Positions 2,747-57,971 of a stretch of DNA of 64,000 bases are shown piece by piece. Under the pieces are notes generated by a model. That model searched no databases and was not told the origin of the DNA. It saw nothing but the letters and a program-made list of their open reading frames with translations. The position numbers and the translations under genes were made by a program. Every line of letters begins with the position of its first letter. Positions within the stretch are counted from its first letter, which is position 1. The DNA comes from Cordylochernes scorpioides (Eukaryota > Arthropoda > Arachnida > Pseudoscorpiones > Chernetidae), in NCBI GenBank assembly GCA_030710605.1, contig CP092884.1, positions 21,557,483-21,621,482 on the forward strand, written 5' to 3'.

Positions 2747-3035
2747 AAGAAAAAAAAAGGCATCTCCTTATCGTGCAACTGAAAGTTTCTGATGGCTTGC
2801 GCCATCTATCGGAATAAATATCAGCTATTCGTTAATTTTTAATTATTCCAGAATTGGCCAAATACCCATTCTTGATTAATGAGTAAAGAATGGGTATTTG
2901 GCCAATTCTGGAATAATGAAAAATCAACGAATAGTTGATATTTATTCCGATAGAATGCTCATGCATGCATGCATTTTCAGTTGCGCGATAAAGAGATGCC
3001 TTTTTTTTTCTTAATTTATGCACCTTATCCCAGTA
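2747..3035. mobile_element. foldback copy of Penelope-like terminal repeat (family A2)
   Basis: Two inverted arms meet near 2880. The left arm begins GGCATCTCCTTATCGTGCAA and the right arm ends with the inverse, GCGCGATAAAGAGATGCC. Each arm carries the CGGAATAAATATCA and ATTCCAGAATTGGCC blocks also seen at 20580, 28435 and 28770. At 28435-28619 the same block runs straight into a hammerhead ribozyme, which ties this family to the HHR repeats. This copy lacks the ribozyme core. Confidence 0.7.
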
Positions 3036-3045
3036 CAATATCACA

Positions 3046-4287
3046 TTTGTACTATTTTTTCATAATCATTTTTGTTAGCTATCAGCGTGTTATCAACGAT
3101 TATCGGATACCTAAAATTTCTTAGCAACGAATATGTATTCGCTTTCGTATACAAAATTAAATTCCAATTAAAGAAACGTTAATTCTTCGAAAGACATTCG
3201 GCTAGACATGCTTAAAGAAAACCGAAGCTTATGAATGGTAGAGCCGCTTTAAAAGTGGACGAAGCTCAATAAAATATTATCCAAGAGTAGAAAAACCTCT
3301 AGAGAAGAAATTAGAAAATAAAATATAAACCAAATTACATAAAAAATGTCGAAAATAGAAAAATTGACATACAGGAACTCTTTCAAGGATAACGGGTCTT
3401 TCGATGGGATTAGCTTATTCCCTTTTATTCACGACAATCTTTCTTTGCAAATGGTAAAGAAGTTTCCCAAATTTGTCTCTAGACATCTCCCACTCGAATA
3501 GAAACAGAAGTCGAGAAACATGTGACGCCATATTTGAAACGGCGACAGCCCCGTATATAATATGAACTGTGTTTGATGGTTGATAGGGAATGGGCAGCTA
3601 TCCCTCAGAACACCATCCGCATGTTCATTGAGTCAGTACCAAGACGTGTTGCTGCCTGTATAGCCAGCCCACCGCTGTGGTCCCACAACATATTGAGTGG
3701 ACAGCGATGTCACTCAGTGCATAGATGTATTCTGTTCTAATAAAGATAATTTATTGTTAGTTACTGGTACTCTCTTTATGCAGATTTTCACAACTTTTTG
3801 CCTACTAATTCTAGGTGTTGCAAATTCAGTGTTACGTAGTGTCAGCCGCTTATTACGCCACAAACGGATGCGCCTATTTTCTCTCTTTGATATATACAAA
3901 TTCTATTCCAGACCTATCGCAGCCACCTAGAAGTCTGATATTTTATACACATTTTTTGCTTGATTAAGTTAGTGTAAAAATTTTTAGATTTTTGCGTGAT
4001 CTGGTAATATATTGAAAATTTATACCTAAAAATTTGAAAAGAAATATAAAATTAGTCCATTTCCGACAACTGAGAAGTCTTTAAATTTGAATACTTTTGT
4101 ATTGTTAGCTGGATTGAGTGAGTATACAAAATTTAAGATTTCTGTGTTGTCTGCAAGTATGTTAAAACTTGGCTAAAAATTGAAAGGAACTATAGAAATT
4201 GGTCCAGTCCATACCACCCCAACCCCTCGAAACTCATTACACCAGCGAAACGGCTGCACCTGTTTACCTTCGTTTGAAAAATATATA
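3046..4287. other. spacer, no gene seen
   Basis: Apart from AT-rich sequence I see nothing definable. Open frames at 3697-3930 on both strands carry no recognisable domain. Confidence 0.45.
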
Positions 4288-8745: not shown

Positions 8746-9884
8746 GACATCTTTCCGGTCAATATGGTGTACTCCATCCACCTGCGTCTCGCGATGTGAC
8801 TATTCCTGAGTATTGGTCCCGAATATCCTTTCTTGATGAATTAATAAAAGCCAACCATGTACTGTGGTCGTTGACCATCATCAACGTGGTGCAGACTGTA
8901 TATTTGTATTTTCCCCAAGGAGAGTCTGAACGTTTCTTTATAAAAGAAGAAAAAAATTGTTTTAATTTTACAGATGTTTCTACATATGCAGTGAATACCA
9001 CGTCCAAGTTTATTTCATGAAACAATGTGTGCTTATAACATTTGTCCTTTTTATCCAAAAGACGGACTATTTTCCGTCAAAATCTTTCGATAAGGATAAA
9101 ATATTCTTCTGAGGGAATTAATTCTCAAATATAAAATAATTCCATTTGAAAAAAGAAAGAATAATTTTCACAGAATAGCTTCTAAGAAGCTGATACTCTA
9201 CGGACTTCTGCACTTCTTACTTAACATTTTCTTCAGCCGAACATTGCGCCCCTTATCCTAGCAGTAATCAGTCATGCTGAAGATATAAATACAATACTTA
9301 ACTCATCGTTTAGAATAATGTATGGTGTCTGACGTCCAACTTAAATAGAATGTATTCACATCATCTTCCATAATTAGTTCCCAGAACTAAGGCGAAAGAG
9401 GCAACAAGAAGACTTTTGAAAACTTTGGGCTTAAGTTTCACTTGTAGGTGTGGTGGCGGTTAGGCTACTAGTGTATGCTTGTATATGCTGTACGTCAGAG
9501 TAATAGGCCTACCATGTACCACTAAATTCTGAACTGAGGTGAAGTTCTACCGGAAATTTCAATGTTGAAGTCGAACACGTTGCCACAATATAGGTGATTT
9601 TAAGCACACTATGACGAGAGAATAGACTTCCTTTAGAATTCTAATTGTAGGTGATACTGAATCCAACTTTTAATTAGGACAGATATTCGAAACATAATAA
9701 GTTCAATTAGGTCTTTAAACATCTCACTATAATTAGAATGTAAGTTGACCCCAAGACCACAATTCGTAAAAGTAAACGGGTCATGGTATGTTTTCGCCCA
9801 GGAAGGAGAGAATTGGTAGCGATTAATTTAGACAGCGACCCATCTAGAAAGTACCTGTTATTAACCTTAAGAGACAGAACCTGG
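8746..9884. other. spacer, no gene seen
   Basis: No repeat or coding signal is supported. The overlapping open frames at 8736-9058 lack known domains. Confidence 0.45.
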
Positions 9885-16582: not shown

Positions 16583-17110
16583 TCAATATCTTTTCGACTG
16601 ATTTCCATCTATATTTTGGCCATAGAATTGTCTAGCCACCAAACCAGCTCCTTGGCAGAATCCCTTGTGGATCTCATGAACTCTAAGCCCGTCCTGGACT
16701 AATGAAGACCATAGCCTGAAACTATAGGGTCGGTGGAAGAATGGTCTAAACCGTTGGTTTTCGACCGCTACGACCCGGGTCCGATTCCCCCGCATTGGGC
16801 ACTTTTTTTCTGATAAAAAAAAAGCGAGTGCAAGTAACCAAACGAGGCTCTGGCACATTTGTAAGTGAAAAGTCGAACTGCTTTTCACATGTGAAGACAT
16901 GTGGTGCATTTATAGTAAAAGCAGTCGCCTACTTCTACTCACCATGATTATCATGGCCTGTACCACGTGTACTAGGGATAAGCAAAAATAAAAAATAGCC
17001 CGAAACCATGGCAACGAGGTGGGCGTTCTGGTTTTTCAAAAACTTGTGTTGTGGCTTTATTCCCGACCTGATTCTTCTAGTTTGCAGAGACGGTCAATAG
17101 ATGGCGCTTA
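16583..17110 (+). mobile_element. solo hammerhead-B repeat, split by a SINE
   Basis: The part before 16726 matches the HHR-B unit of 22.6-23.7 kb in the same order: TTTCCATCTATATTTTGGCC, GTGGATCTCATG, GTCCTGGACT. The part after 16994 continues it: GCCCGAAACCATGG, then TTGTGTTGTGGCTTT and GGTCAATAGATGGCG. The core has decayed to CTAATGA and a family 1 SINE sits between stem II and stem III. Confidence 0.75.
16726..16994 (+). mobile_element. tRNA-derived SINE, family 1, inside a hammerhead motif
   Basis: The tRNA-like head (TGGTCTAAACCG, GGGTCCGATTCCC) and shared body end in an A-rich tail; the body lacks about 40 bp after the head. Flanks ATAGCCTGAAACTAT (16711-16725) and ATAGCCCGAAACCAT (16995-17009) are a 15 bp target duplication with two differences. 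Both contain the GAAA box of the host ribozyme. Confidence 0.88.
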
Positions 17111-17286
17111 GGTTTGACTGGAGAGGTAGGCTATCTTTGTATTTCGATTTCAAAGTTCAATATCCTCCCTGCATAATTTCCATCTATATAAGAAATTAGC
17201 GATTATATGAAAATATTGGATGATTAGTTTATGTAATATGTCAAGTAAGAAGTTTCAGAAGATGAGTTTCTTTTAATTGTAAAACA

Positions 17287-20035: not shown

Positions 20036-20576
20036 TCCTGAGATTCCTAATATTTTAAGTGAAAAGAGCGGCGGCTTATGCTTTTTTTTTTTTTTTTTTT
20101 TGGCATATTATGATAGGGCAGCTTAGTTTCAGATAAGGTCGCTTCTAACATGGACAACAGACACCGACCTTAATGTAGATTCTGATGCACATTTTGGTTT
20201 CTTACTTTTGACCTCATAATCTCGCCAAGTAACGTCATTGAGAATTTGTGACTTTTTATAGGACAACACAGACATGCCCACCACACTGAAGATTGGTGCC
20301 ATGATTGCTCTTTTTTCAAAATTTGCAGCTAATCACCAAATCCGATTTCCCTATCAGCCACCTAGGTCTCTATTGGTAGAATTGGTAATCCGCTTGGTAG
20401 AATTTGCTGCTCTGATTCTCTATTTCCAATTTTGAAATTGAAGAGATAGTTGTCATTTATCTATCTTTTTATAAATTCAATTTTAAACAAACAAAAATAC
20501 ACAATACTTTTGATTCACATTATAATAATCCCTTTTATAAATATTAAGGTAAATCATCAGGCTTCCAGGAATAAAT
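20036..20576. other. spacer with a T-run
   Basis: An uninterrupted run of about 22 T lies near 20080. No gene is seen. Confidence 0.5.
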
Positions 20577-20822
20577 TGAGAAAAAGGGCATTTCCTGATC
20601 GTGCAACTAAAAATTGCTGATGGCTTGCGCCATCTATCGGAATAAATATCAACTAATCGTTGATTTTTTCATTATTCCAGAATTGGCCAAATACCGTTTC
20701 TTGATATTTTGCCAATTCTGGAATTATTAAAAATCAACGATTAGTTTATATTTATTTCGATAGATTGCGCAAGCCATCAAAAACTTTTATTTGCACGATC
20801 AGGAAATGCCCTTCTTCTCAAT
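20577..20822. mobile_element. foldback copy of Penelope-like repeat A2
   Basis: The left arm holds GGGCATTTCCTGATCGTGCA and CGCCATCTATCGGAATAAAT. The right arm is the inverse, ending GCACGATCAGGAAATGCCC. The centre is at the ATTGGCC/GGCCAAT block near 20700. It matches 2747-3035. Confidence 0.7.
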
Positions 20823-20904
20823 TTATTCATCTGATCTAAGTACAAATTCACTTTTGTACTGTTTTTCACATTCCAGGGATAAGTTTCGTTTTTGAAAAAG
20901 ATAT

Positions 20905-22469: not shown

Positions 22470-22620
22470 CTACACTCGTAGACAAAACTTAAGGAAGTTT
22501 TACCATTAGCATATATATTGGGTTTCATACAATAACTCTGAAAGATATTACAGTGACCTTTATTGAAGACACACGAGATAATCAAGTGTGAACAATCTCT
22601 GTCTCCTTCAAAAAAAAAAA
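22470..22620 (+). mobile_element. Tc1-type MITE fragment (ACAAAACTTAAGG ends)
   Basis: It starts ACACTCGTAGACAAAACTTA and contains GAAAGATATTACAGTGACCTTTATTGAAG in pieces, shared with 51612-51789 and 57990-58315. The right end is lost. Confidence 0.6.
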
Positions 22621-22801
22621 AAAATATATATATATATGGAAATTTTTGCCGGGAGGAAAATGATCTAAAGAGACAAGGGTCGCCTCTCCCGTCAAAATAG
22701 ACGTCTAAAACAGACGCCATCTATTGACCGTCGCCGCAACTAGCGGCCTCGGGTCGGTGACAAAGCCACAACACCAGCTTTGGCAAACTGAAAAGCGTCC
22801 A

Positions 22802-22845
22802 CCTGGAGACCATGGTTTCGGGCTGATGGCCCTCGTCAGTCCAGG
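22802..22845 (-). ncRNA. hammerhead ribozyme, family B, unit 1
   Basis: Minus strand, in order: stem I CCTGGA, core CTGACGA, stem II GGGC-CATCA-GCCC, GAA, self-complementary stem III ACCATGGT, cleavage base C, stem I TCCAGG. Every invariant core position (CUGANGA, GAAA, A15.1-U16.1, H17) is present and stem I pairs perfectly over 6 bp. The predicted cut is between plus coordinates 22808 and 22807. A type I minimal layout with a palindromic stem III is known from Penelope-like elements. Confidence 0.9.
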
Positions 22846-23120
22846 GCGGACTTTATTCCATGAGATCCACACGGGATCTAAGGGAATCTTGACAATCTGC
22901 CAAAGAGGTGTTTTGCTGGCAAAGTGGCTGGGCCATATCTATGGCCAAAATATAGAAGGAAATTTTGCCGGGAGGAAAATGATCTAAAGAGACAAGGGTC
23001 GCCTCTCCCGTCAAAATAGACGTCTAAAACAGACGCCATCTATTGACCGTCGCCGCAACTAGCGGCCTCGGGTCGGTGACAAAGCCACAACACCAGCTTT
23101 GGCAAACTGAAAAGCGTCCA

Positions 23121-23164
23121 CCTGGAGACCATGGTTTCGGGCTGATGGCCCTCGTCAGTCCAGG
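23121..23164 (-). ncRNA. hammerhead ribozyme, family B, unit 2
   Basis: It has the same stems and core as the unit 1 ribozyme, and lies exactly 319 bp from it in the same orientation. Cleavage at both sites in one transcript would release a 319-nt unit. Confidence 0.9.
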
Positions 23165-23538
23165 GCGGACTTTATTCCATGAGATCCACACGGGATCTAA
23201 TGGAATCTTGACAATCTGCCAAAGAGGTGTTTTGCTGGCAAAGTGGCTGGGCCATATCTATGGCCAAAATATAGATGGAAATTTTGCCGGGAGGAAAATG
23301 ATCTAAAGAGACCCGAGGCCGCTAGTTGCGGCGACGGTCAATAGATGGCGTCTGTTTTAGACGTCTATTTTGACGGGAGAGGCGACCCTTGTCTCTTTAG
23401 ATCATTTTCCTCCCGGCAAAATTTCCATCTATATTTTGGCCATAGATATGGCCCAGCCACTTTGCCAGCAAAACACCTCTTTGGCAGATTGTCAAGATTC
23501 CATTAGATCCCGTGTGGATCTCATGGAATAAAGTCCGC

Positions 23539-23582
23539 CCTGGACTGACGAGGGCCATCAGCCCGAAACCATGGTCTCCAGG
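23539..23582 (+). ncRNA. hammerhead ribozyme, family B, inverted unit
   Basis: Plus strand: CCTGGA (23539-23544), CTGACGA (23545-23551), GGGC (23552-23555), GCCC (23561-23564), GAAA (23565-23568), ACCATGGT (23568-23575), cleavage base C at 23576, TCCAGG (23577-23582). The core and stems are intact. Confidence 0.9.
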
Positions 23583-23713
23583 TGGACGCTTTTCAGTTTG
23601 CCAAAGCTGGTGTTGTGGCTTTGTCACCGACCCGAGGCCGCTAGTTGCGGCGACGGTCAATAGATGGCGTCTGTTTTAGACGTCTATTTTGATGGGAGAG
23701 GCGACCCTTGTCT

Positions 23714-23716
<3 letters not shown>

Positions 23717-23763
<47 letters not shown>
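23717..23763. repeat. TA microsatellite
   Basis: An almost pure TA run of about 45 bp. Confidence 0.95.
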
Positions 23764-26967: not shown

Positions 26968-27048
26968 AGCAAAAATAAACTAAACGTTTATTTAGATTGC
27001 TCCGTGATATTTGGCCAACCCAATTTTTTGATAAATCAAGAAAAGCCA

Positions 27049-27090
27049 TACACGAACGCGTTTCGCGCTGTTGGCGCTCGTCAGCGTGGA
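27049..27090 (-). ncRNA. hammerhead ribozyme, family A (GCGC stem II)
   Basis: Minus strand: stem I TCCACG pairing with CGTGTA (one mismatch), core CTGACGA, stem II GCGC-CAACA-GCGC, GAAA, stem III ACGCGT, cleavage base T. Stem II differs from GGGC/GCCC of other copies by paired changes that keep the helix. Confidence 0.8.
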
Positions 27091-27125
27091 GTAGGCTGTA
27101 ACCACTGCGACCAAAAAATCTTTTA

Positions 27126-27713
27126 TACAGGCTATTCAAAAACTAAAAAGGTTAATGTGATTTTTTTTTAAATGTAAAACCAAAAAGCGTTAGTTCCAGC
27201 CGTTTACCGCTTGGCGCCGCACTGGTCGCGACGATAAATGAATTTGATTGGTTAATAATTTTACACGTAGTTTGTTAGTTTGTTTACACGTGAATGTTTT
27301 TAAAAGGTAAGATTATCCAATCGCCGTAAAACTTTAGGAAGTTATATTTACTATACTACAGGCAAGGTTTCGGGTTTGAATTTGATTTGAAATAAATATT
27401 CGTTGCAATTTTATTTGCAAATTTTCTACTTTCACTCGCAAGCAGCGCCTCTAGCGGTATCAGGTGAAATTACATTTATAAATTGTAAAAATGCTAAAAT
27501 GTGTTCCACAAGTATAATAAATATAATATTTAATTTGAGGATCTAGTAATATAATATTCCAATGACGTTGTAAAAATAACTTGGCATTTCAATATTAATA
27601 TATATTTAGAGAAAATATCTTATATAAAATTTAATGTTTTCAAAAAAAGTATGTGCTTCAAAAATATATTTAAACGCATATAACAATATTTATATACGTT
27701 TATAAATCTATAT
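27126..27713. other. spacer, no gene seen
   Basis: AT-rich with a slightly GC-richer patch at 27190-27245. No feature is recognised. Confidence 0.45.
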
Positions 27714-27759
27714 ATATGGAACGCTTCACGATTTTGCGTGTCATCCTTGCGCAGGGGCC

Positions 27760-27799
<40 letters not shown>

Positions 27800-27819
27800 A
27801 CCGCCGAACAAGCGTGTAC
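27714..27819 (-). ncRNA. U6 spliceosomal RNA copy, likely pseudogene
   Basis: The minus strand carries the near-complete U6 sequence: a 5' stem-loop closed by GTAC/GTAC, ACATATACTAAAATTGG, the ACAGAGA box with flanks (GATACAGAGAAGATTAGC), the AGC catalytic triad region and TGCGCAAGGATGACACGC. The length (106) is right for U6. Against a functional gene: the 3' end runs into CATATATATAG without the T-run that ends RNA polymerase III genes, and no TATA box lies at the usual distance (the nearest is about 5-10 bp from the 5' end). The telestem has one change (AAAATCG). U6 pairs with U4 and then U2 in the spliceosome. Confidence 0.85.
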
Positions 27820-28435: not shown

Positions 28436-28660
28436 GAAAAAGGCATCTCCTTATCGTGCAACTGAAAGTTGCTGATGGCTTGCGCCATCTATCGGAATAA
28501 ATATCAACTATTCTCGTTGATTTCTAATTATTCCAGAATTGGCAAAATACCCATTCTGGATTAATCAAGAAAAGCTAACCATGGACGCGTTTCGGGCTGT
28601 TAGCCCTCATCAGCGTGGTGCAAGCTCTACCTCAATGACCAAAAAATTGATAATTCAGGC
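28436..28660 (-). mobile_element. Penelope-like terminal repeat A2 with intact hammerhead
   Basis: It begins GGCATCTCCTTATCGTGCAA, continues through CGCCATCTATCGGAATAAAT and CCAGAATTGGCAAAATACCC, and then the minus-strand ribozyme. A truncated second copy starts again at about 28780. It links the A2 foldbacks at 2747 and 20577 to the ribozyme family. Confidence 0.75.
28578..28619 (-). ncRNA. hammerhead ribozyme, family A (canonical core)
   Basis: Minus strand: stem I ACCACG, core CTGATGA (the commonest natural core), stem II GGGC-TAACA-GCCC, GAAA, stem III ACGCGT, cleavage base C, stem I CATGGT with one mismatch. The canonical CUGAUGA and GUC-type cleavage triplet make this the most textbook-like copy. 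Confidence 0.88.
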
Positions 28661-28860: not shown

Positions 28861-29520
28861 CCCAGACAACCAGAGAGAGAGAGAAGGAGAGAGCCGGGCG
28901 GCCGTTCGTATCGCACACAATCCTCTAACTGACTTAAAAGTCCCAAGGTGTCGACGGACAGGCCCCGTTTGCCGTCCCTTGGAATGTCGCTGCTGTCTCA
29001 AGTGACCGGACTTTACATCCCGTCTCTCTCTGGGCTGTCTCTAGGTTTGCTTTATTATTCCTGGTAGAGTATATATTATGACATATATATAGTATAGTTA
29101 TGAAAATTTTAAGATTAATAATTTTTTTATTTAATTTAAATGTGTGAGGTTTGTTTTTTTATTTTTTATTTTTTTTTGTAATAAATAATTAGTTAGATTA
29201 TATTTTTTAAAAAAAGTAACACCAGCAAAGCATCGGCAGTTACGCGTCATAGGCTGGGTGAAAAAAGGAATAAGCGAAGAGAAAGTTTTAAAGAGAAGAG
29301 CAAAGACAGAACCATGATAATAATTTTCCAAATATAAAATAAAGCTAATTAGAGAGAGAGAAGTATTTTTTGCTCTATTTTCTCTCTTGATGAAAAAAGA
29401 TAGATTTTTGTGAATTTTTTTTTTTGGGAATTTTTTTTTATAAGCTTATTTTAAAGACAATCTAGTGTAAATGTGGAGGACACGATATATGATAGTATAT
29501 TAAATTAGGAAGGATGAAAA
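28861..29520. other. spacer, no gene seen
   Basis: 28861-29030 is GC-richer with purine-rich runs; the rest is AT-rich. No domain is recognised in the open frames. Confidence 0.4.
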
Positions 29521-30775
29521 CCTTAAAGGTTAAACCAGAAACCAGGCGGGCCTCTTCAGATGAAGACCTGAGCAGCAGTTTCAGCCCTTTCTCCATTACT
29601 GCCAAACCATGCCTCTTCGACCAAATAGAAAGAAAATTTAGGTTGGAAGGGAGATAGGGTAATAGCTGAGCCTTAGATACTACATAAATCAACTAATGAA
29701 CTGAGCAAGTATCATCTTCTTCATTTTCAAACCTAACTCAAAAAATGCTTTTTTCAGTTCAGAAGTTAAATTTATTCGGTTCCCTAGACTTAATCAGATT
29801 GAAACATACTTATCCCTTAGTGTTAAACTTTAAATCATATTGTGTTTTTTTTTTAAATTCTTTTTGGGTATAAGGACTGTAAGAGACTGATAAGAAATTA
29901 GTAATACAGTTAAATGATTATTACAAATACAGGAAAATATGATCATATCCCAAGCCTTTAACAATGTGTGTCAACAAGGGAACAGGAAAATCTAACATTA
30001 AATAACATAGAAAAATAAACTTTGTCTGATGTTGGTAGGTTCAGATTATGGTCCAAATTGTGTTCATACACTCTAAATAATAGAACTGCAGGAAAATAAT
30101 AAGATATTAGAAGTACGATAGGATAAGGATTAATTGGAACTACAAGAAAGTACGATTAAATTCAAACAAGTTAAGAATGTGCGTCATACCATAAATGGAA
30201 ATATCAGCTTCATCAGACAAAGAAATAAGTCCCTTGTCTGAAGATGGTAAAAATGCTTTCCCATAATAAATCACATCATCAGTTTATTTGAATTGGTCTT
30301 AACGGTACCGTATATTCTATATGTAGTCCTATCTATACTTTTTATTTAAGTATTATATATGTGGACCAGTACCTGTTATTTCTGCTAAATAAGGAAGTTT
30401 AGGAATTTTAAGTTTTAGTGCTTCATATCAATTAGATTGAATGTTCATTCTTTATACCCCCCTTTATAAAGATTGAACAAGCATAGATAATTGTTATGTA
30501 TGCTATAAGGAGAGGAAAAAAATATTCTAAAGTTATCGTATAAATTTAAAGGATCAAACAAAGTAAGAATTAGAGAAAATACAGAAATAAAGGTATGGTA
30601 TTGGTAAGCACGGGTAATAAGACCAAATCCAAACAAATAAACAATGTGCGACATTTCGGCATCAGCGCCGTTACAATCTTCAGACAAGTCTGAAGAGGGT
30701 AACAACGCCGCTACCGAAATGCCACACACCACTCATTCACTCGGACCCGGTCCCATTACCTTGTGTTTATAATCT
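29521..30775. repeat. region of degenerate CTGAAGA-type repeats
   Basis: Three related decayed blocks occur near 29550-29620, 30180-30270 and 30600-30730, with TCAGAYRAAG/TCTGAAGA cores and the GAAATGYC or GAAAAT-like second box in the last one. The last block is a short foldback (ACATTTCGG on the left, CCGAAATG on the right). They resemble ribozyme-bearing Penelope repeats but keep no stem I. No coding sequence is seen. Confidence 0.4.
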
Positions 30776-30776
30776 A

Positions 30777-30815
30777 CTAGCCGAATGACCCGGGCAACGC
30801 CCGTGTTTTACCCGA
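30777..30815 (-). mobile_element. Helitron 3' terminus
   Basis: The minus strand ends ACGGGCGTTGCCCGGGTCAT, TCGG, CTAG: a GC hairpin 8 bases from a CTRR end, identical in layout to the Helitron at 33284-34038. The matching 5' end was not located. Confidence 0.6.
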
Positions 30816-31981
30816 TTGAATGTTTTGATTCAAATACTATTTGTTACAATTATAATTTGGCGCCTTAAATAAATGCATATGTTAGTTAATAACTATAGCC
30901 TATGTGCTTTATCTGTCTATGTACTGTTGGCTTCCGTAGGCGTCTCTTACTGGGAAAAAGAAAGAGAGGATTCCATTTGGTTATTAACTAATATATGCAT
31001 TTATTTAAGGAGCGACCCGCTCCAACACAATAGTTACAAAAACGAAAATGCGAGTGGGGGGGGGGGGGGGGGGGGCAAAGGTGGCGTGATCGTAGCCGAC
31101 CAATAGGAGGGCGCCATTAAAAAAAAAAGCAAACCGTGACAGAGTTGATTGATTAGGAGATTAGGAGATGAAGAATGACGCTCGTAACTGTATATAGAAT
31201 AATCCAAATTGTGCCTTATCAGTATGGTATTGGTGTTTCAGAATATTGAATTTAATAGTTTCTATTAGTGTAGACGGAATTTTTTTATTTTATTAATTTA
31301 AAATCTTAATTATTATTTGTTCTAAGTCCAATTAAAAGGGGTGAAGAAAAAAGGAAAACAAAAAACAAAATTTAAAAATAATAAAAATAAAAAATAAAGA
31401 AAAGGAGAGAAAGATGAGGTGGAAAAATAAAAGAAATTTTCTTTGAAAATATTTATAATAGCTTATAAATACACTCAATTAGTGTGATAGCATTCCTTAT
31501 GAATGTTATGATTTCAAGAGTATTTACCTATAATTAAATTATTTATTATCTAGATTAGCGGAATGTAGTTAGTGTTGGTGAATCAAGAGAGATAGATGAT
31601 TTGACTCTTGTTAGTTGCATCATTGTCTTCAAGTGAAAGTAGTATTTAGATTGCGCGTTCCAGTTGAAGTCAGTATTGCTGTTAACATTATTGTAGATCA
31701 TTCATTTATATGTATTGAATTACGGTTCATGTTATCAACTTAAAATTCAATATATGTATGTTACAATTAACATCACAAGCAAATTCTACTCACCCAGGGG
31801 GACACGGTTAATGTCTATAAATAAATTTTCGATTTTAAAGTTAGCGGAGAAAAACAAGTTTGAATATCCGGTCAAAAGTTAATTAAATTCTCATAGTGAA
31901 ATTTTTAAAGTCATCGAAGTTGAAATTGTAAGAAAATTTATTTTTGTGAAGATATTTTCTGATTGCTAAAATGTTAATTTT
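30816..31981. other. spacer with a long G-run
   Basis: A run of about 20 G lies at 31056-31075 and could form a G-quadruplex or be an assembly-sensitive homopolymer. The rest is AT-rich with no recognised gene. Confidence 0.5.
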
Positions 31982-32533
31982 TTAAATTGTATTTTGGCTG
32001 AATCCATTTTTTTGAAATTCCTCATTTAAGTTTTTAATTTTACTTATAAAGTTGTTTAATTTGTTGTTAATTCTGTATAATCTTAGAAATTGTCCAAAAT
32101 AGATACCTTTGGTGCAATTTTTTGATATATTTGAATCTTGTCTATTATATTTAATAATGTTGAAATCGAAATTTGATCTTTTGTCATATACTTCTATACT
32201 TTTTTCTTTTAGATTTATGTATAAATCGAGGAAGTTGACTTTTTGATTAAATTTGATTTTTTCATTATTTTTTAGATTTAGATACGGAGGATAGATTTTT
32301 TCTATTAATTTTGAAAATTTGTTATTATTGAATATAAGAATGTCATCTACGTATCGGAACAACCACCAGTTAACTTTGTTAAGAGAAAAGAATTCCCTCT
32401 CATACCAAAATAACAGGAGGTTGGCCAATAATGGACTCAATGACGTACTCATCGAGTCCATTTTTGGCCAACCTCCTGAGCACATGTGCTTTACAGAAGG
32501 CAGAGCGCCATCTGGTGGAACAGAAATCAACAA
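31982..32533 (-). pseudogene. Penelope-like reverse transcriptase fragment
   Basis: The minus-strand frame holds the C-terminal half of a reverse transcriptase. SLSPLLANLL is motif B' (usually GSPLSP.LANL). WLFRYVDDILIF is the catalytic YxDD box (residues 61-64). FLDLYI is the following conserved block, then a thumb-like YFGQFLRLYR segment. The enzyme would copy element RNA into DNA. This pattern fits Penelope-like elements, and the frame adjoins a ribozyme-family terminal repeat. The first 24 codons come from that repeat. The fingers, the first catalytic aspartate (motif A) and any GIY-YIG endonuclease are missing, so it is broken. Another reverse transcriptase class cannot be excluded. Confidence 0.65.
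32505..32518 (-). promoter_or_regulatory. CTCF-consensus match in repeat A
   Basis: The minus strand reads CCACCAGATGGCGC, a full match to CCASYAGRKGGCRS. Confidence 0.5.
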
Positions 32534-32678
32534 AACATTGATTTAGCATGTTCCCTGATATTTGGCCAACCCAATTTCTTGATAAATCAATCGTGGATCG
32601 CTTTTCTTGATTTATCAAGAAATTGGGTTGGCCAAATATCAGGGAACAGGCTAAATCAATGTTTTGTTGATTTCTGTT

Positions 32679-32692
32679 CCACCAGATGGCGC
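32679..32692 (+). promoter_or_regulatory. CTCF-consensus match in repeat A
   Basis: CCACCAGATGGCGC is a full match. It lies 160 bp from, and convergent to, the inverse site in the left arm. Confidence 0.5.
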
Positions 32693-33157
32693 TCTGCCTT
32701 CTGTAAAGCACATGTGCTCCTGGTCAGGATATGCCATTTTTATTTTTGATTTCAACACCTTATCTTTTTATCTTTTATTTTTTCTTTCGTTTTTTCATAT
32801 ATATATATATATATGTTTGTCGGCTATGCACGCCCTCAATATGTAGCTAATCTCGCTGAAATTTGAACAGGACAGAGTTAAATCTGGAAGAGTTTTTTGT
32901 GTCGCACTTTTAACCAAGAAAAATTACAATTAACCAAGTACTGAGCAACAATATTTTTTTTAGTCAGAAATGATTATGACAATATTGCTGTATCATGCCT
33001 GATTGACATAAACAAAATTCTTTAGGGGAATATTCACTAAAGCAGACCACGGGCGAAGCCTGATACTAATTTTTAGTAGGCAGGAACAAAATTCTACCAG
33101 CGAAACATTCACTTGAGCAGAAGACACACGAAGCCAGGTCACCTCTCTATATAAAAT

Positions 33158-46524: not shown

Positions 46525-46765
46525 GACCAAACATTTTTGGTCGTAGCGGTATAGCCTGCACCACGCTGACGAGGGCCAACAGCCCGAAACGCGTTCGTGG
46601 TTGGCGTTTCTTGATTTATCAAGAAAATGGGTTGGCAAAATATCAGGGAACAGGCTAAATCAGCGTTTAGTTGATTTCTGTTCCACTAGATGAGCTCTGT
46701 CATCTAAAACGCCCATGTGCTCGTGGTCAGGATTTTTGATTTTAATACCAACACCTGATCTTTTT
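46525..46765 (+). mobile_element. Penelope-like terminal repeat, hammerhead family A
   Basis: Plus-strand order: TTTTTGGTCGTAGCGG, ribozyme, TTCTTGATTTATCAAGAAAA, GGGTTGGCAAAATATCAGGG, TTGATTTCTGTTCCACTAGA, CATGTGCTCGTGGTCAGGA. It is the same unit as 26905 and 55165 in opposite orientation. The CTCF-like site is damaged here (GATGAGCTC). Confidence 0.8.
46560..46601 (+). ncRNA. hammerhead ribozyme, family A (GGGC stem II)
   Basis: Stem I ACCACG (46560-46565), core CTGACGA (46566-46572), stem II GGGC-CAACA-GCCC (46573-46585; loop included), GAAA (46586-46589), palindromic stem III ACGCGT (46589-46594), cleavage base T (46595), stem I CGTGGT (46596-46601). All helices pair without mismatch. 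The H17 base T is allowed but less usual than C. Confidence 0.88.
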
Positions 46766-55220: not shown

Positions 55221-55288
55221 AGCAAAAATAAACTAAAAACTCCGTGATATTTGGCCAACCCAATTTATTGATTTATCAAGAAAAGCCA

Positions 55289-55330
55289 TCCACGAACGCG
55301 TTTCGCGCTGTTGGCGCTCGTCAGCGTGGA
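55289..55330 (-). ncRNA. hammerhead ribozyme, family A (GCGC stem II)
   Basis: Minus strand: stem I TCCACG/CGTGGA (6 perfect pairs), core CTGACGA, stem II GCGC-CAACA-GCGC, GAAA, stem III ACGCGT, cleavage base T. Together with 46560 (GGGC/GCCC) it shows a compensated stem II change. Confidence 0.9.
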
Positions 55331-55372
55331 GAAGGCTGTAACCACTACGACCAAATCTTTTTTTCGAACGTC

Positions 55373-56649: not shown

Positions 56650-57971
56650 CAAGGTGTGTCCAATAAATAATGAGACCAGTCAAAACAAAGAAAAAATGAA
56701 ATGATAATTTTTTTAAAGTCTATTAAAATAAAATAGAAAGCTTCAGCTACACTGCGGTATATCACATCACGTGATTGCGCGCGTAGTCGATAAATTGTAA
56801 GCTTGTAAAAAGAACGCCTTGCATAACAACTTCTAATTTGTAATGGATAGAAAATTCGAACAACGAATTTGTATTAAATTTTGCTACAAAATTGAGAAAT
56901 CGGCTTCAGAAACTTTAGATTTGTTGAAATTGGCATTTGGAAATGAAAATGTAAATAAGCCCACAACATTTAAATGGTTTTCACGATTTAAAAATGGAAT
57001 GGAATCGGTGAAAGATGAGAAGCGTGTTGGACGTCCAATTCTGCACAGGAACCCTGAAAAGGTGAGCCAAATTTCAAATTTGATAAAAGAAAATCCACGA
57101 ATAGGGTTACGGGACATTGAGGAAGAAACAGGGATATCAAAATCATTAGTTGGATCGATAATTAAAGAAGACTTGCAGTTAAAGAAGACACCTTCAAAAT
57201 TTGTCCCTAAAATGCTCACAATCCAACAAAAGAAGAATCGCGTTGAAATTGCCAAAAAAAAATGCTTGAAATGGTGGAAGAAAACCCTAATTGGAAGGAA
57301 AAAGAAATAACTGGAGACGAGACATGGGTTTACGGGTATGACCCGGAAACAAAACGCCAATCCATGGAGTGGAAAGGAAAAGATGAACCAAGAACGAAGA
57401 AATCCCGACTTTGCAAGTCAAAAAACAAAGTCTTATTGGTCACGTTCTTTGACATAAAGGGAATTGTGCATTATGAATATCTAGAGGAAGGTCAAACAAT
57501 CAATAAGGAGTCTTATTTAAACATTATGAGACCTGTACGTGAATCAATTCGTCTGAAAAGAAGTGAAATGTGGAGTTCCAAAAATTGGATTATCCATCAT
57601 GATAATGCACCACCACACACCGCTACATCTGTACTGACTTATTTGGCTAAACACGGCATCCAAATACTTCAACAACCTCCCTATTCCACAGACCTAGCTC
57701 CAAATGATCTTTTTCTCTTTCCAAAACTCAAAATGGCTCTAAAAGGAAGGAGATTTGACACTAGAGAGTCCATCATAGCGGATTCGAAAAAGGTCTTGAA
57801 GAACATCCCGAAAGATGCCTTTTCTAAATGTTTTAAATCATGGGAGAAGAGATGGGAATTATGTATAGATGCGGGAGGGGACTATTTTAAAAAATACTAA
57901 TAAGATTTTTTTTAATCATTCTATTTTTTCTTTATTTTTGACCAGTCTCATTATTTATTGGACACACCTTG
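56650..57971 (+). mobile_element. mariner-family transposon, nearly complete
   Basis: The 1322 bp element has inverted ends CAAGGTGTGTCCAATAAATA / inverse, flanked by TA at 56648-56649 and 57972-57973. The ends match for about 35 bp with two differences. The size, TA target and a D34D transposase identify mariner. It encodes one transposase broken by a single homopolymer shift. Confidence 0.95.
56843..57900 (+). pseudogene. mariner transposase, one frameshift
   Basis: The N-terminal half (56843-57310) has the two helix-turn-helix DNA-binding domains (GRP linker at residues 62-64, FKWFSRFKNG before it). The C-terminal half (57262-57900) has the catalytic domain: ITGDETWV with D at 57316, HHDNAPPH with D at 57601, and DLAPNDLFLFPKLK with D at 57706. 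There are 34 residues between the last two (D34D, mariner). The frame is lost in a run of nine A at about 57253-57261; one extra A or two fewer restores the reading frame. Length without the break is about 350 residues, normal for mariner. The WVPHEL linker motif is not seen intact. Confidence 0.92.

Follow-up and report, generated by a model that had tools for sequence, protein, structure and literature searches.

The 64,000-nt stretch of the pseudoscorpion Cordylochernes scorpioides considered here (assembly GCA_030710605.1, contig CP092884.1, positions 21,557,483 to 21,621,482 of the forward strand; hereafter the window) contains at 22637-23718 a single insertion built of a non-coding 319-bp unit with hammerhead ribozyme motifs, in a genome of 2.62 Gb in 24 contigs. 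The insertion consists of two head-to-head arms that both point outward from one junction, and the outer ends of both arms adjoin an AT microsatellite, AT/(TA)n. With the unit numbered from the predicted hammerhead cut, the two arms end at unit positions 145 (site A) and 177 (site B). The parts of the locus are the following.

22609-22636, unstranded: left flank, an A-run plus (AT)n
22637-23312, minus strand (ribozyme sense): left arm, 2.1 units of 319 bp; outer end at site B, TTTCCA joined to ATATAT
22802-22845, minus strand: hammerhead 1, of type I; the known rule for hammerheads places the predicted cut between 22808 and 22807
23121-23164, minus strand: hammerhead 2, of type I; its cut is predicted between 23127 and 23126, at a distance of 319 nt from that of hammerhead 1
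23310-23312, unstranded: head-to-head arm junction, 3 bp common to both arms
23310-23718, plus strand (ribozyme sense): right arm, 1.3 units; outer end at site A, GTCTCTTTA joined to TATATA
23340-23434, plus strand: region of the two start sites, about unit positions 83-177, with a predicted fold of AUAGAUGG/CCAUCUAU around hairpins; sites A and B are 32 nt apart
23539-23582, plus strand: hammerhead 3, which belongs to the right arm; its cut is predicted between 23576 and 23577
23717-23763, unstranded: right flank, (TA)n

The initial annotation of this DNA had placed three hammerheads here, two on the same strand one unit apart and a third inverted, and their positions, strands, complete invariant cores and 6-bp stems I were all recovered. 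The 319-bp spacing is borne out by units 22641-22940 and 22960-23259, which are 99% alike, and by a separate repeat analysis that also returned a period of 319. What had been overlooked is that the inverted hammerhead is part of the second arm of the same insertion. The unit has a GC content of 50.8%, and the tandem units have no long frame (longest stop-free frame 92 codons, longest from ATG 53), in agreement with the earlier statement that no protein is encoded. A 319-nt RNA is still the product predicted from tandem hammerheads one unit apart. The assignment to non-autonomous, retrozyme-type elements stands as well; a likeness to Penelope terminal repeats had been offered beside it, and of this we retain the resemblance of the insertion ends to those of Penelope-like elements (PLEs).

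Pairing of the outer ends

The two-armed architecture recurs throughout the loci examined in detail, which comprise 26 of the 30 clusters listed outside the window and the window locus itself, 27 in total. This sample is biased towards the youngest copies, because the search ranks these first; it comes from one genome, in which array lengths depend on the assembly. Twenty-five of the 27 loci are clearly two-armed, with the arms pointing outward in 25/25. One arm ends at A and the other at B in 24 of these insertions, both end at A in one (L048), and B/B is absent; under a fair independent choice of ends, 24 or more A/B insertions among 25 have a probability of ~8e-7. The sides are balanced: site A is the left end in 12 of the A/B insertions and the right end in the other 12. 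In the window and 19 of the loci L031-L050, which together give 20 two-armed insertions, 19 end at 145 and 177 and L048 ends at 145 twice; L033 has one arm only, ending at 177. Six further loci added five two-armed A/B insertions (L065, L066, L067, L069 and L070) and one composite (L068). L044 was classed as A/B on inspection; here the alignments stop at 174 and 154, in a target other than pure TA.

Genome-wide, exact ends joined to TA number 1242 for A (597 + 645) and 1245 for B (666 + 579), which are counts of ends rather than of insertions and include duplicates; reversed-pattern controls gave 0 + 1 each for A and B. Pairing of ends was analysed on contig C1, starting from the first 100 places listed for each end, of which 95 A-ends and 100 B-ends were used (five A-ends past the last B-end were dropped). 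Here 40 neighbouring end pairs lie within 10 kb of each other, against 2.4 by chance; 30 are outward A/B pairs and none is an outward A/A or B/B pair. The remaining ten are four same-direction A/A pairs ~9 kb apart, three inward B/A pairs and three same-direction pairs (B/A, A/A and A/B). At G000:C1:39421314-39457641 five same-direction A-ends recur about every 9.1 kb, probably as a local tandem duplication that carries the element.

The target is an AT- or TA-rich tract in all 25 two-armed insertions. L044 has an 11-bp target duplication, ATATATTACTC, recognized by eye; elsewhere (TA)n masks duplications. The inner junction varies in position along the unit and shows ~0-9 shared bases or 1-65 filler bases (2 shared bases at L042; 4 to 19 at L040, according to how a hairpin is aligned). 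Such variable junctions have the look of end joining. Between the two arms of an insertion, lengths show only a weak correlation (rho 0.38, P 0.10, 20 insertions).

A DNA search with the unit reported 295 matches, with 40 of 1023 candidates scored, and the best of these, which are the ones listed, have 99-100% identity. Among the cut-to-cut stretches of the first 21 loci, 57/93 are letter-identical; copies at 68-92% identity exist as well. The family comprises a young, recently active layer and an older past. The window itself holds an old relative of the start-site region, 68% identical, at 17063-17189 (plus strand).

Hammerheads and the predicted fold at the start sites

The three hammerhead motifs are identical, with all invariant core bases, a stem I of 6 bp, a stem II of 4 bp and a short stem III of palindromic sequence, ACCAUGGU; each complete 319-bp unit contains a hammerhead. 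With a strict hammerhead descriptor, six motifs were detected over both strands of the window, against a mean of 0.025 and a maximum of 1 in 40 Markov-1 resamples. In axolotl, hammerheads with a short palindromic helix III perform better as dimers (PMC7229834), and by analogy the same would hold for the hammerheads of the 319-bp element.

The initial annotation had set a miss by the Rfam covariance models as evidence against a ribozyme, and the Rfam hammerhead models indeed give no match at this locus, either in a scan of the whole window at E<=1 or with the locus alone at E<=10, so that the Rfam gathering score is not reached. In the whole-window scan RF02275 matches two motifs of sister families, at 27035-27100 and 55275-55340, below its cut-off. 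RF00163 yielded zero matches in the genome search, and zero in 14 control genomes too. A covariance model built from seven sister-family hammerheads, none of them from the 319-bp element, matches all three copies with 22.3 bits (E 0.0011); in this alignment stem III is out of register, as is the 3' side of stem I. A degenerate hammerhead-like motif at 8854-8890 (minus strand) scores nearly as high on this model (21.6 bits, E 0.0018). We retain the ribozyme reading despite the Rfam miss because of the sister-family match and the descriptor control.

The structure is further addressed by folding and covariation. ViennaRNA alone favours a different fold of the core, with the 2-nt loop lying beyond its scoring. 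In the 319-bp element one pair of stem I changes from G-C to A-U in 3/7 rows, which represent an older lineage, and the alignment as a whole is not above shuffles. In the sister families two pairs, one in stem I and one in stem II, have changed on both sides, and the score exceeds that of 499/500 shuffles (six distinct rows).

These sister families, F2 and F3, account for four more hammerheads in the window, at 27049-27090 (minus), 28578-28619 (minus), 46560-46601 (plus) and 55289-55330 (minus); their stem II reads GCGC/GCGC or GGGC/GCCC, and their stem III is the palindrome ACGCGU. In places copies lie ~340-350 bp apart, which suggests that F2 and F3 are retrozyme families too. In the F2 genome search 9 of the 39 clusters listed have copies on both strands, all with minus left of plus, and the others are single. 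Palindromic F2/F3-like copies in the window are likewise outward (32440-32740, 20569-20828 and 2757-3010). Rfam labels F2/F3-like palindromes and other inverted repeats as microRNA precursors, below cut-off.

At sites A and B of the 319-bp element, the predicted fold pairs AUAGAUGG with CCAUCUAU, enclosing hairpins. Over eight copies 88% of the cells remain paired, and seven pairs have changed on both sides, against 3.2 in shuffles (reached by 3/500) and 0-2 in slid controls; further pair types are not more numerous than in shuffles. The test leans towards the fold, because the fold was derived from one of the rows tested. By eye, UAGAUGGCG and GGAGAUGCC are shared by F2 and F3, in which they precede the ends.

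Proposed priming from both DNA ends, its template and rival explanations

The 319-bp element seems to be inserted like a PLE without being one, because its inverted A/B ends and AT-rich target are those of a PLE, yet it has no coding frame for a reverse transcriptase (RT), which PLEs encode, in most cases together with a GIY-YIG endonuclease. PLEs are abundant in this genome: a search reported 151 matches, with 150 of 43,639 candidates scored, and seven among those listed have open frames of 810-831 codons. A PLE copy on contig C6 carries an N-terminal GIY-YIG domain (Pfam E 2e-7, above cut-off). PLEs with an N-terminal endonuclease are placed in a Naiad/Chlamys group. The RT region shows a YVDD motif by eye and matches the NCBIfam group II RT family at E 4.9e-9 with 35.8 of the 300 bits required, and weak matches are found in the PDB among group II and telomerase RTs (E 0.035 to 0.36). 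No RT family was found by Pfam at E 0.1 in the complete 754-residue frame of the L063 PLE. The PLE piece in the window reaches 15.7 of 29.6 bits for RVT_1, below cut-off, and has no PDB match at 0.1. A truncated PLE lies in the window at 29090-32452 (minus strand); it is 88-93% identical to the C6 copy, with a break between 30776 and 31199 and its 3' end in a TA tract. In the 3' part of the L063 PLE, three CTGA-GA hairpins (3040-3120, 3500-3560 and 4140-4220) faintly resemble permuted hammerhead cores.

The ends of the C6 PLE are organized in a similar manner. A short inverted left end stops at ...CTATAC (A'), the right end (B') extends ~110 nt further, and both reach TA. Within the stretch of C1-C4 that contains the first 100 A' listed and 34 B', 20 pairs of neighbouring ends are at most 15 kb apart, against 0.5 by chance; 19 are outward A'/B', one is inward B'/B', and none is an outward pair of like ends. 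At two PLE loci (L052 and L056) the coding sequence itself is head-to-head.

Variants shared between arms bear on the template. In L049, 52C>T is present in 12/12 covered units of one arm and 4/4 of the other and is absent from every other tabulated insertion, which is good evidence that one RNA lineage fed both arms, and moderate evidence for a circular template. The arms of L048, the A/A insertion, differ: four variants occur in one unit of one arm and in none of the 3.9 units of the other. By eye, the composite L068 has a left arm of F2 and a right arm of the 319-bp element ending at A, and beside it lies an arm in which the 319-bp element continues as F2. These chimeric arms (L068, 1-2200) stand next to an older copy of the 319-bp element, 84-95% identical, with one B and one A end.

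Taken together, we favour, with a probability of roughly 0.7, a retrozyme of the animal type whose insertion is primed from both DNA ends in the manner of PLEs, the two start sites lying on a multimeric and most likely circular RNA. Transcripts of tandem arrays would be cut by the hammerheads into 319-nt RNAs, which we infer to be closed into circles. A PLE protein with GIY-YIG endonuclease and RT, presumably of the C6 type, would then cut both strands of a TA-rich tract. As read from the ends, reverse transcription would be primed by both DNA 3' ends, with one using site A of the RNA and its counterpart site B, 32 nt away. Both complementary DNAs (cDNAs) would go round the template, reaching ~0.1 to 13 units, and their free ends would be united by end joining or microhomology, leaving two arrays that face away from one junction.

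Several observations weigh against this reading. On C1, 65 of 95 A-ends have no outward B partner within 10 kb when exact patterns are used; long arrays, decayed ends or single-arm insertions would each leave A-ends unpaired. Among the 30 outward A/B pairs the spacing is 179 in five and 161 in two, and these repeated spacings indicate that some pairs are probably duplicated loci. As for the enzyme, exact ends of the C6 type are unequal (A' 408, B' 134, the B' pattern being derived from one copy), unlike the near-equal A and B, and 81/100 A' and 15/34 B' fall outside any outward pair. The two ends are 32 nt apart in the 319-bp element and ~110 nt in the C6 PLE, and a sequence match between the two was not established; the mover may be another PLE family. 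Regarding the template, 52T lies at a CpG and has 422 exact genome matches, so that it is not private to L049, whose template may therefore derive from an older copy. Furthermore, both arms of L047 carry 249G>T together with 252C>A, though the longer arm does so in 1/2 covering units, L040 has 297G>A in 7/13 units of one arm and not in the single covered unit of the other, and L036 has 127G>A in 2/8 units of one arm. Mixed units within an arm count against a single monomer circle, because such a circle makes all units alike; they give a hint of template changes or later conversion in these insertions.

The mixed units of L040, L036 and L047 are what a long linear multimer transcribed from a genomic array would give, with both DNA ends still priming by the PLE mechanism. 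In vitro, hammerhead mutants of an anole PLE still insert, so that cleavage is dispensable there (PMC11167929). We nevertheless consider a linear template unlikely: the units of L049 are alike 16/16 over both arms, which requires a uniform source array, and for such an array a circle or homogenization would have been needed earlier.

It is improbable that the arrays are solo remnants of an autonomous PLE, with the unit as its pseudo-long terminal repeat (pLTR). Minimal hammerheads do occur in PLE pLTRs (PMC7761336), but the unit has no frame, the C6 PLE has different ends, and the 27 loci hold up to 13 uniform units without PLE coding sequence, save for a 68%-identical PLE stretch near L046. 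Slightly less credible again is a fold-back, in which priming occurs at a single DNA end and the head-to-head palindrome arises when the cDNA, or an antisense RNA, folds onto itself; the palindromes of rotifer PLEs were interpreted in this way, by self-priming on an antisense template (PMC3846280). A single start-site end is predicted by this model, whereas the outer ends observed are both start sites, A on one side and B on the other, and for this reason two-ended priming fits better. Moreover, the junctions vary along the unit, some with filler bases, and the arms of L048 and L068 come from different templates. Expansion and inversion of an ordinary satellite by recombination, with the hammerhead kept by descent, would account for tandem arrays with inverted copies but is scarcely credible given the dispersal over many contigs, the fixed outer ends in (TA)n, the L044 duplication and the one A and one B per insertion.

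Within the two-ended priming that we favour, retrozymes might stand to PLEs as short interspersed elements do to long ones, with one RNA circle copied simultaneously by two RT subunits, each of them serving one chromosome end, from site A on the one side and from site B on the other. We put this forward tentatively, at somewhat less than even odds. If true, the one-A-one-B rule would be the imprint of how an enzyme dimer is arranged on one RNA. The sole A/A insertion found, L048, also has arms from visibly different RNAs; the weak correlation of arm lengths lends no support to coupled polymerases.

Elsewhere in the window, a U6 small nuclear RNA gene or copy is located at 27710-27819 (minus strand; Rfam 108 bits, above cut-off), and mariner-like transposase frames at 56837-57900 (plus strand), with Pfam HTH_48 above cut-off in the first.

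Comparison with known systems

Non-LTR retrozymes of metazoa (LTR, long terminal repeat) are the closest relatives (Cervera and de la Pena 2020, PMC7229834). They resemble the 319-bp element in having a type I hammerhead inside 150-450-bp tandem repeats whose unit encodes no protein, and in occurring in genomes that also contain PLEs; a helix III of two pairs with a palindromic tetraloop is common to the 319-bp element and the second axolotl class. Their target duplications exceed 4 bp when present (11 bp at L044), and their GC content is described as below 50%, a descriptive remark rather than a strict limit; the 50.8% found here lies just above it. The 319-bp element differs by its two outward arms per insertion and by the fixed ends A and B in TA tracts; the main text of PMC7229834 lacks the terms inverted, head-to-head and microsatellite. 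The LTR retrozymes of plants are similarly non-autonomous and hammerhead-processed, with a circular RNA intermediate proposed, but have type III hammerheads in LTRs, a primer binding site (PBS), a polypurine tract (PPT) and 4-bp duplications (PMC7229834). An LTR-element layout was not seen at our insertions, though no search for a PBS or PPT was made.

PLEs share with the 319-bp element the head-to-head inverted ends with a tail on one of them, the AT-rich target with a short duplication, and two adjacent start sites with extension of both strands (PMC3846280, PMC11167929). In PMC3846280 one of two inverted repeats bears a tail of 31 bp, and the duplications measure 8, 9 and 10 bp. The purified anole PLE acts on AT-rich DNA, where it cleaves and extends each of the two strands; initiation takes place at two neighbouring internal sites, which correspond to the 30-40-bp tail (PMC11167929). 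The rule of one site for each strand is thus not in the anole in vitro data, which show no start-site difference between strands, and a strict one-A-one-B rule for PLEs was not found stated in the passages of PMC3846280 and PMC11167929 consulted. The 319-bp element differs from PLEs in being non-coding, only 319 nt long and arranged in long arrays.

Retrozymes, PLE tails and inverted PLE ends were already known, and PLEs had been named as likely movers of retrozymes in the form of a hypothesis (PMC7229834, PMC7761336); this published guess now has counted evidence. We recognized no report of two-armed retrozyme insertions or of an A/B rule in searches of the open literature (subscription papers and preprints were outside this scope). 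The gain here is mechanistic, and it bears on the mobilization of animal retrozymes, on whether their circles serve as template and on the insertion of PLEs: the insertions preserve a record of start site, strand use and template identity. An exact in vitro prediction follows: on the same RNA, site A would be the start for one DNA strand and site B the start for the opposite strand.

In the twin priming of L1, both DNA ends likewise prime on one RNA and give rise to inverted segments, but this is an exception and the internal priming is variable. In contrast, the 319-bp element shows two arms in nearly every insertion, starting from two fixed sites and extending over more than one round of the template.
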